From Loktanella atrilutea (GTDB taxonomy: Bacteria > Pseudomonadota > Alphaproteobacteria > Rhodobacterales > Rhodobacteraceae), in assembly GCF_900128995.1 (NCBI RefSeq), contig NZ_FQUE01000004.1:124001-188000 (forward strand): a DNA stretch of 64,000 nt. Reading direction: 5' to 3'. The translations under genes were made by a program, and so were the position numbers. The notes beneath the pieces were generated by a model that had not been told where the DNA came from, searched no databases, and worked only from the letters and a program-made list of their open reading frames with translations. Positions 26,069 to 28,479 of the stretch are shown one piece after another. How positions within the stretch are numbered: the first letter of the stretch is position 1; each line of letters opens with the position of its first letter.

Positions 26069-28479
26069 CCCCGCGCCCGGTGGATCGCAGCCAGCACCGC
26101 CTCCGGCGTCGCCGGGGCCTGCAGGTCGGGCCAGCCCGGCCCGCAGGCCGCCACCGCGTCAGACAGCGCCAGAAAGGCCGAAATCCCCAGCATGAACGGC
26201 GGCTCCCCCACCGCCTTGGACCGATAGATCGTCGCCGCCGGGTTGGGCTGATCCCAAAGCGCCACGTTGAAGACATCAGGCCGGTCGGCGCAGGCGGGAA
26301 TCTTGTAGGTGCTGGGCGCATGGGTGCGCAGGCGGCCGTGATCGTCCCAGACCAGCTCCTCCGTCGTCAGCCAGCCCGCCCCCTGCACGTAGCCGCCCTC
26401 GATCTGCCCCAAATCGATCGCCGGGTTCAGCGAGGCGCCGGCATCGTGCAGGATGTCGCAGCGCAGGATCCGGTTCTCTCCTGTCAGCGCGTCGACGACG
26501 ACCTCCGTCACCGCGGCGCCCTGCGCGAAATAGAAGAACGGCCGCCCCCGGCCCCTGATCCGGTCCCAGGCCAGGTCCGGTGTCCTGTAGAACCCGGTGG
26601 CACTCAACGAGACCCGGTTCTGATAGGCGGTCGTCACGGCGGCGGCAAAGCTCATCGAGTCGCCGGCCACCTGCACCGCGCCATCGCGGAATCGCACCGT
26701 GTCCGGCGCGACCTGATGCAGCTCCGCCAGACAGGCGGCGATCCGGTCGCGGATCGTGTCGCAGGCGGCCTGCACCGCCATTCCGTTCAGGTCCGCCCCC
26801 GACGACGCCGCCGTGGCGCTGGTATTCGGCACCTTGCCCGTATCCGTCGCCGTGATCCGCACCGCGCCCACGTCGATCCCGAAACGCGATGCCGCCACCT
26901 GCGCGATCTTCTGGAACAGCCCCTGTCCCATCTCGGTCCCGCCGTGGTTCAGGTGCACCGATCCGTCCTGATAGACATGCACCAGCGCCCCGGCCTGATT
27001 GAGGTGGGTCAGCGTGAAGGAAATCCCGAACTTCACGGGGCTGAACCCAATCCCCCGCTTCAGCAGCGGCTGGCCCGCGTTCCACGCCGCGATTGCCGCC
27101 CGCCGCGCGTGATAGTCGCTCGTCGCCAGCAGGCTCTCGGTCATTCCGTGCAGGATGAAATCCTCCACCGCCATGCCATAGGGCGTCGCGTTCGCCACCG
27201 CCGCCGGCACCGCGACCCGGTCGTCCGCCGTCACCTGCGCGCCCCGAGAAGTTATGTCCTCGGCACTCTCTGTCTCGGAAATATCCTCAGGGGGGGCCGC
27301 AGGCCGGGGGGCAGACAGCCCCCCTCCGCCCGTCGCCATCGGCGCATAGTAGTTGACCTGCCGCACCGCCACCGGGTCCATCCCCAGCACATGCGCCACA
27401 TGATCCATCACCCGCTCGATCCCCAGCACCCCCTGCGGCCCGCCGAAGCCGCGAAACGCGGTGGCGCTCTGGGTGTTGGTCTTCAACCGGTGCGAGGTGA
27501 TGCGGCAGGCGTCCAGCAGATAGGCGTTGTCGGCATGCAGCATCGCCCGGTCCGCCACCGGCAGCGACAGATCCATTGCCCAGCCGCAGCGGGTGTAATG
27601 GGTGAAATCGACTCCGGTCAGCCGCCCGGTCGCGTCGAACCCCGCGTCGTAGTCGATGCGGAAATCGTGCCGCTTGCCGGTCACGATCATGTCGTCATCC
27701 CGGTCGTAGCGCATCTTGACCGGCCGGCCGGTCAGCCGCGCCGCCACGGCACAGGCCACCGCCAGCGCGTTGCCCTGACTTTCCTTGCCGCCGAAACCGC
27801 CGCCCATGCGCCGCACCTCGACGCGTACGCCATGCATCGGCACCCCCAGCGCCTCGGCCACCTTGTGCTGGATCTCGGTCGGATGCTGGGTCGAGGAATG
27901 GACGACCATGTCGCCCCCCTCCTGCGGCAGCGCCAGCGCGGCCTGTCCTTCGAGGTAGAAATGCTCCTGCCCGCCCATCTCGATCCGGCCCTGCACCCGG
28001 TGCGGGGCCCGTGCCAGTGCCGCACCGACATCGCCCTTCCTCCAGGTCCGCGGCCCGTCCTCGAAGCGGCTGTCAGCGGCCAGCGCCTCTTCCACGGTCA
28101 GGATCGGCGTCTCCTCCGCAATCGCCACGTGACCCCGCCGCGCCGCGTGGCGCGCGGCAAGGTGGCTCGTCGCCACGACCAGGAACAGCGGCTGGCCCGC
28201 GTAATGGACCCGCCCCGTCGCCAGCAACGGCTCGTCATGGTTGCTGGGCGACACGTCGTTGGCGAAGGGCAGATCCTCTGCGGTCAACACCGCCACGACG
28301 CCGGGGGCCGCGCGCACGGCCGCAAGGTCGAGGCGGGTGACCGCACCGCGGGCGACCTCCGATAGACCGAAGGCCAGATGCAACGTGCCGGCCGGCACCG
28401 GCAGGTCGTCGATGTAGCGCGCGGCACCGGTGACGTGGAGGGTCGCGCTGTCGTGGGGCAGGGGGGTGGCGACGCTCAT
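26065..28479 (-). CDS. xdhB: Xanthine dehydrogenase molybdopterin-binding subunit
   Basis: 804 residues. Active-site elements are the substrate-loop YLEGQAAL Glu, the cofactor motif [24 protein letters not shown] with the substrate Arg, and the catalytic Glu in [14 protein letters not shown]. The enzyme oxidises hypoxanthine and xanthine to urate with XdhA. Residues about 384-409 ([21 protein letters not shown]) form a low-complexity Gly/Pro/acidic insert between NYYAPM and [13 protein letters not shown]. This insert is encoded by a copy of the dispersed repeat; it should be a surface loop, since every catalytic motif is intact. Confidence 0.94.
27255..27330 (-). repeat. Dispersed repeat copy inside the xdhB reading frame
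   Basis: On the minus strand GGGGGGCTGTCTGCCCCCC is followed by GGCCTGCGGCCCCCCCTGAG and GATATTTCCGAGACAGAGAG. This parallels the intergenic copy at 29967-30020 (GGGGGCGCTGCCCCC, GGCCTGCGGCCCCCCCGAGG, TATTTTTGACGAGAAGAAG). The length keeps xdhB open, adding about 26 codons. The core GGCCTGCGGCCCCCCC is identical in both copies. Confidence 0.7.

Follow-up and report, generated by a model that had tools for sequence, protein, structure and literature searches.

A dispersed hairpin element inside xdhB

The gene xdhB of Loktanella atrilutea, which encodes the molybdopterin subunit of xanthine dehydrogenase (XDH), an enzyme of purine degradation, contains within its reading frame a complete copy of a short hairpin repeat, and this segment belongs to a family of Rhodobacteraceae elements that resemble repetitive extragenic palindromic (REP) sequences. 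We analysed it in a window of 64,000 nt (positions 124,001 to 188,000 of contig NZ_FQUE01000004.1), and all coordinates below are counted from the first letter of this window. The explanation that we favour, with a probability of about 0.7, is an old insertion of a REP-like element into the XdhB linker, evolving in concert with the repeat family of the genome. As the cause of this concerted evolution we rank gene conversion first, at somewhat less than even odds, and a co-evolving recognition factor second.

The host gene lies on the minus strand at 26065–28479 in the open reading frame (ORF) list, and the closest solved structure to its product of 804 aa is 1jro_B, from the XDH of Rhodobacter capsulatus. 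The whole element covers 27266–27334 on the same strand, i.e. about residues 382–405. Model R1, derived from 24 intergenic copies in several genomes without any XdhB copy, detects it with 58.4 bits (E 6e-17); R1 has only three base pairs and is therefore close to a sequence profile. Two intergenic copies on the plus strand score 58.3 bits (29954–30019, upstream of xdhA between divergent genes) and 56.9 bits (42963–43027). These are the repeats at 29967 and 42976 to which a preliminary description, made from the letters of the window, had likened the xdhB segment, and its observation of a full dispersed-hairpin copy in xdhB is confirmed; its interpretation of the insert is partly supported. The core match that it had noted holds as well: the 16-mer GGCCTGCGGCCCCCCC is common to the xdhB element and the 29967 copy (repeat pair I14, 84% over 32 nt). 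Chance low complexity, i.e. a GC-rich linker that happens to resemble the repeats, was rejected as the source of the segment on the E-value of a model free of XdhB copies. Such an origin would fit the unremarkable folding of the single sequence, but not the complementarity of the arms of hairpin 2 described below, and we give it next to no weight.

On the coding strand, positions 27266–27334 read GGGGGGCTGTCTGCCCCCC, GGCCTGCGGCC, a C run with one T, GAG, GATATTT and CCGAGACAGAGAG. Hairpin 1 (27306–27324, GGGGGG-CTGTCTG-CCCCCC) is identical in L070, L076 and L083, and its counterpart in R. capsulatus xdhB is GGGGGGGCTGTCTGCCCCCCC. Hairpin 2 (GGCCTGCGGCC, 27295–27305) varies among genera and tends to remain self-complementary. 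It is followed by the C run with the junction CCCCCTGAGGATATTT (27279–27294) and by the lineage-specific tail CCGAGACAGAGAG (27266–27278); all four parts lie on the minus strand. The subclass to which the xdhB copy comes nearest does not include 29967 and 42976; it is rarer, has a CTGTCTG loop and a GATATTTCCnAGACAGAGAG tail, and is represented by three intergenic copies (L070, L076 and L083) among the 42 pattern matches of the genome. The xdhB tail equals those of L070 and L076, from the same genome, at 13/16 positions, and likewise that of one G049 copy. Pairing of the CTGTCTG loop with an AGACAG tail was considered; same-genus copies that have other tails show no such pairing.

Elements of the family consist of a G-run/C-run hairpin, a variable hairpin 2, a C run, GAG or GGG with TATTT, two to three nearly free bases and a motif of 10–12 nt. 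The only invariant columns of our alignment (A4) are the G run, the C run and TATTT. Per-position information is weak for the two to three bases after TATTT and then rises over the 10–12-nt motif, which is largely fixed per genome and different among genomes, e.g. GACGAGAAGAAG (G000), GCCAGATGAA (G042), CAAAGGTGAA (G044) and GGGCAGATGAA (G043). It comes near 2 bits per position in G042, G043, G044 and G046 and mostly also in G000 and G041; in G045 and G048, which have mixed classes, it is less clean. The arms of hairpin 2 fit each other better than arms mixed between genomes (mean stem 4.15 vs 2.99; 0/5000 mismatched sets; 13 genomes). This test comprises 13 of the 26 long-form rows, leaving out those that lack a second hairpin and the majority of those from the same genus, and the window's own copy scored only 2 in it, its region being cut at the C run. 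Directly before the G run, an AT palindrome like CCGATTTTTCTAGAAAAATCGG is found in L063, L065, L066, L067, L068, L072, L074 and L075.

In the protein, the linker from NYYA to ATPYGM measures 51 codons, about 20–26 of them derived from the repeat (the preliminary description gave roughly 26 added codons between NYYAPM and TPYGM). The catalytic regions align well with those of relatives. In an AlphaFold model (28 sequences, model mean 79.5), residues 383–427 have a predicted local distance difference test score (pLDDT) below 50 and form the longest of eight such segments; the top structural match is 1jro_B with a template modelling score (TM) of 0.90 (760 residues shown of the 777-residue chain). 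The insert, for which a surface loop had been proposed, is probably translated as a disordered loop, and it may have persisted because a disordered linker tolerates it. Two other peptide motifs recur in XdhB linkers with or without the repeat, D(L/I/V)(A/S)SRG(A/S) and R(F/Y)G(G/A)xxSP (examples are L040, L125, L126, L129, L140, L149 and L121, L122, L123, L136, L142, L147).

Age of the insert and its match to the host genome

The insert in XdhB is an old, shared state. A loop with related DNA is present in all nine same-genus genomes, the window's own and eight relatives, whose proteins are 80–91% identical; G005 has another hairpin 2 and G008 a degenerate one. R. capsulatus XdhB (1JRO) has the element as well. 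We read the linker DNA at 109 loci, comprising 29 loci and a further 80 from a named scan (the best 80 of 586). Many XdhB of L031–L059 and L121–L150 carry the element, either long with its hairpins or in a short version, and the 50 loci L151–L200, mostly from other families, have linkers of 4–12 codons and no element (0/50), in keeping with the short linker previously said to be typical of most XdhB. In a quick tree of 69 rows from which the linker was excluded, all 34 element rows (26 long, 8 short or degenerate; the labels H, T and none were assigned by eye from the linker DNA) fall into one Rhodobacteraceae clade of 47 rows (97 in the Shimodaira–Hasegawa-like approximate likelihood ratio test, SH-aLRT). 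Thirteen rows of this clade are without the element, and none of the 22 rows outside it has one. The simplest reading is one old gain, which may date from an early point of the crown Rhodobacteraceae and would have been followed by about ten losses.

The preliminary description had seen in the segment a repeat that is or was mobile and may create new protein sequence in this lineage. The in-frame position, the repeat-like build and the absence from L151–L200 are compatible with that view, but a recent lineage-specific insertion in xdhB was rejected, as all 8 other same-genus genomes and R. capsulatus carry the XdhB element, and we hold it to be very improbable. It could apply to the NnrD gene in the group of G000, G002, G005 and G008, which is treated below. 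The clean gap that was expected in related XdhB does not occur among the close relatives and is seen in the outgroups and in the 13/47 clade rows. Nor do relatives share the loop with unrelated DNA, its sequence being related in 8/8 of those of the same genus.

XdhB tails tend to agree with the version of the repeat that their host genome has elsewhere. In a permutation test with 17 genomes, 16 nt of each XdhB tail were scored against dispersed tails from the same genome and from the 16 others; the sum for own genomes was 24.3 (mean) or 35.2 (top three) against a permutation standard deviation of 4.2 or 5.0, and 0/20,000 permutations were as high. The own genome ranks first in 7 cases and second in two (mean) or four (top three) more; G023, G043 and G045 have intermediate ranks of 2–9. 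Other same-genus genomes were left out, as were G013, G014, G016 and G019 with one or two dispersed copies each; one dispersed copy of G005 (L349), whose core is identical to the XdhB core of another species, was dropped, and some chance hits (e.g. L211, L227, L229 and L376) remain in the dispersed sets. By eye, four of five short-form XdhB copies also fit their own genome (G011, G053, G054 and G056, the fit of G053 resting on one copy), and that of G055 does not.

Within the genus, GATATTT occurs with ACAGAGAG in G000 and G002, and AGTATTT with AAAAAGCGAG in G005, G007 and G008. No intermediates between these two combinations were seen, and both are present among the dispersed copies of G000. 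The joint switch of junction and tail, in combinations known from dispersed copies, favours conversion tracts. Recombination with other copies over short tracts, i.e. gene conversion, would then keep the xdhB copy family-like, and selection at the protein level would act on the positions left free, i.e. the Ser codon after ATT, the reading phase and the avoidance of stops.

A rival explanation shares the core of this proposal and differs in the cause. The element, the xdhB copy included, would everywhere be a functional signal for recognition or processing, a trans-acting factor of the lineage would shift its preference, and the copies would follow by selection. Several genomes with a motif near 2 bits per position, the variable two to three bases preceding it and hairpins that vary between copies look more like a selected site than like fresh copying, and the synonymous constraint in xdhB (see below) points in the same direction. 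An orthologous intergenic site also stays in place with its tail differing between species: the place upstream of xdhA holds an element in G000, G002, G007, G003 and G004, with different tails, and none in G008, G006, G001 or G005 (which has one farther upstream). Against a factor speak the joint swap of junction and tail within one genus and the several tail classes side by side in one genome; moreover, no factor is known. We regard selection by a factor as a somewhat less likely cause than gene conversion, ahead of the other alternatives.

Several results weigh against an old insertion homogenised by conversion. A binding factor would produce the same concordance between tail and genome. The own genome is first in only 7/17 cases; as a yardstick, it is the best for 149/192 dispersed copies. 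The window's own genome ranks fifth (mean) or second (top three), because its main class differs from the class of its XdhB copy, and G010, G018, G041 (R. capsulatus) and G050 show no fit at all (ranks 11–14). At the site upstream of xdhA, G002 has a tail like those of G000 instead of its own usual one. The tree requires 11 presence/absence changes, or 16 with three states, so that the element may have been gained more than once; the tree is a quick one, and its outgroup is not one side of a branch. The low synonymous divergence reported below may come from conversion rather than from selection. Finally, single-sequence RNA folding of the window element is not better than that of shuffles (z −0.85) and was not used as support; for the R. 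capsulatus element z is −2.36.

DNA constraint and in-frame copies in other genes

The xdhB element is under a DNA constraint that goes beyond the protein. Among the nine same-genus xdhB genes, 74 of 439 four-fold comparisons differ within the element (0.169) as opposed to 5919 of 13126 outside it (0.451), and 0/738 overlapping sliding windows are as low (minimum 0.259). Plain nucleotide identity of the element (0.832) is unexceptional, being reached by 175/742 such windows. Rare codons are kept in the element, namely TCT in 8/9, CCT in 7/9 and AGT in 7/9 of these genes; in the rest of the gene TCT makes up 4% of the Ser codons, CCT 6% of the Pro codons and AGT 7% of the Ser codons. The reading phase of TATTT is constant in 28/28 XdhB copies, and the following base is C, which gives Ser, in 25/28 of them vs 52/232 dispersed copies (6 of the 34 element-bearing rows, without an intact TATTT or TACTT, were not counted).

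These counts bear on a further possibility, namely that the XdhB linker was struck repeatedly and independently by the current repeat of each host. Tails that tend to match the host, an absence scattered in the clade and the presence of copies in XdhA and NnrD are all what recurrent insertion would leave. It would hardly yield one phase in 28/28 copies and C after TATTT in 25/28, since the NnrD copy stands in a different phase and another phase is therefore open. Furthermore, every XdhB copy seen is sense and all 11 XdhA copies are antisense, with an odd loop in G013 that may be opposite, and no mobile partner was found in 10 genomes. We consider recurrent insertion improbable. In the G013 XdhB loop (L043), GGAGATTTTTCGACGAAAAATCTC takes the place of the hairpins.

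The gene xdhA (28476–29849, minus strand) has no copy in the window; in other genera its interdomain linker contains one in antisense orientation. R1 matches on the minus strand of xdhA, in the linker between the Fe-S and FAD parts, were found in 10 of 26 loci searched among L121–L150, and with L133, which was outside these 26 and was added from other readings, 11 of the 30 named loci have a copy (L125, L126, L127, L132, L133, L135, L141, L142, L144, L145 and L149). The copies are antisense and in frame, and 8 of the 9 found by a strict pattern agree in phase (L125 differs). Their tails also favour the own genome (7 genomes; 4/20,000 permutations by mean, 0/20,000 by top three, the copy L274 having been removed), with no fit for G052 (rank 13) and rank 5 or 3 for G045. 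The xdhA and xdhB copies of one operon share hairpin 2 in L135 and the junction GAAGGTATTT in L127, which the genome patterns used could not match elsewhere. R. capsulatus XDH (1JRO and others) contains two translated copies, ...SSGVRGQTAPA... in XdhA and ...GGLSAPPSPPEP... in XdhB. In the xdhA linker of L141, a hairpin arm has expanded locally within the coding sequence, to about four copies of the unit GGGGGCTCTGCC (peptide AEPPSDQTVAEPPLNQTGAEPPLNKPAAEPPS).

A third in-frame copy lies in an NnrD/YjeF-like gene (L077:1333-2880, L386, L390 and L387), which we take to be NnrD from its YjeF-type motif GPGNNGGDG. It is present in G000, G002 and G005, degenerate in G008 and absent in G006, G007, G010, G014 and G018; G001, G003 and G004 gave distant partial matches only and were not read at the insertion point. 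Filled and empty sites were seen side by side; their borders are too diverged to be defined and compared with the terminal inverted repeats and target duplication of miniature inverted-repeat transposable elements (MITEs).

In the usual account, a repeat within a gene inserts and from then on drifts as part of the protein; this repeat inside a conserved enzyme tends to retain the current version of its genome across genera. It allows one to ask whether homogenisation or selection of a recognition signal lies behind the concerted evolution of short dispersed repeats, with the codon constraint as a yardstick, and it explains where linker segments came from in the two subunits of R. capsulatus XDH, an enzyme of known structure. 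A more doubtful idea is that both kinds of in-frame copy in the xdh operon, the sense one of xdhB and the antisense one of xdhA, are dual-coding, kept as working nucleic-acid signals of a genome-wide system and recognised by a lineage-specific factor. The XDH loops would in that case arise as a side effect of a signal with a regulatory or chromosomal role, and a crystallised enzyme would record the evolution of that signal.

Distribution of the family and comparison with known repeats

In the window's genome, the pattern CCCCNGAGN{0,3}TATTT has 42 matches, the XdhB copy included, vs 1 for a reversed control, a short-form pattern (TCCGGCGGGN{0,2}TATTT) has 30 vs 0, and R1 has 78 at E<=1e-3. Over 41 genomes, R1 found matches in 20, i.e. 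in 20 of 25 Rhodobacteraceae and in none of 16 genomes of other families; counts near 120 are to be read as at least that many, 122 candidates having been scored per genome with stricter filters. R. capsulatus has 192 matches to a slightly wider pattern (control 0). We classified the places of the element in 140 loci by means of a gene finder that had learned codon usage from the window, a few places being counted twice: 127 are intergenic, 2 lie at locus edges and 11 in genes. The intergenic places comprise 51 convergent, 37 codirectional sense, 35 codirectional antisense and 4 divergent ones, vs 39 divergent among the 81 other gaps of these loci that are 80 nt or longer (Fisher p 3e-15). Hence the element sits at gene 3' ends and avoids divergent gaps, like REP repeats, and the window copy at 29954–30019 is an exception. 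The 11 in-gene places are 4 chance-like matches, 6 XdhB and 1 NnrD, with no genome surveyed completely.

REP elements are palindromes tagged with GTAG and CGTC, associated in some genomes with tyrosine transposases (available text of PMC3733652). The same text describes them as short, many-copy palindromes that lie mainly downstream of genes, between convergent or unidirectional genes and sometimes inside ORFs, and frequently near one another in opposite orientation, as seen here in R. capsulatus (PMC3733652). There, many elements form facing pairs about 50–60 nt apart (L207/L219, L239/L241 and L251/L253), whose tails could pair mutually. The Rhodobacteraceae element differs in anatomy, in having the xdh genes as a recurring intragenic site and in lacking an invariant GTAG or CGTC tag; CGTC stands on the opposite strand of the G000 tail and is mostly missing from the tails of other genomes. 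A further difference is that no Y1_Tnp gene (PF01797; REP-associated tyrosine transposase, RAYT) exceeded the cut-off in 10 genomes (0/10; control signal in 5/14 genomes), so that a present mobility, one of the options suggested earlier, finds no support here; G044 has one sub-threshold stretch of 21.9 bits that contains a stop.

Rickettsia palindromic elements (RPE) are palindromic repeats translated in frame within protein genes (PMC3733652, PMC2635572, as far as their available text goes). Our element is likewise translated in frame. In Rickettsia, as these texts present it, many genes are hit, whereas here true intragenic copies are limited to XdhB, XdhA and NnrD in the loci examined; the comparison is one of descriptions. 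A GC hairpin followed by TATTT at gene ends also recalls an intrinsic terminator, but its Ts form a short, interrupted tract, and of the 127 places 35 are antisense and 37 sense between codirectional genes. Rfam at gathering score gave no family match in window positions 26000–44000 and, in five further loci, RNase P alone, away from the element. By titles and abstract openings we found no description of this family in the Rhodobacteraceae in open-licence literature, and we make no claim that it is unpublished.

Within the window, R1 matches four places at E<=1e-8. Besides the xdhB copy and the two intergenic repeats introduced above, these include an intergenic copy absent from the preliminary description, at 17297–17371 on the minus strand (34.7 bits), between the genes at 14791–17289 and 17393–17710. 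At 3285–3327 and 6437–6479, genes are followed by short sequences that are related to the element and have tails of the GAAAAAGCGAGGACG type (repeat pair D16).
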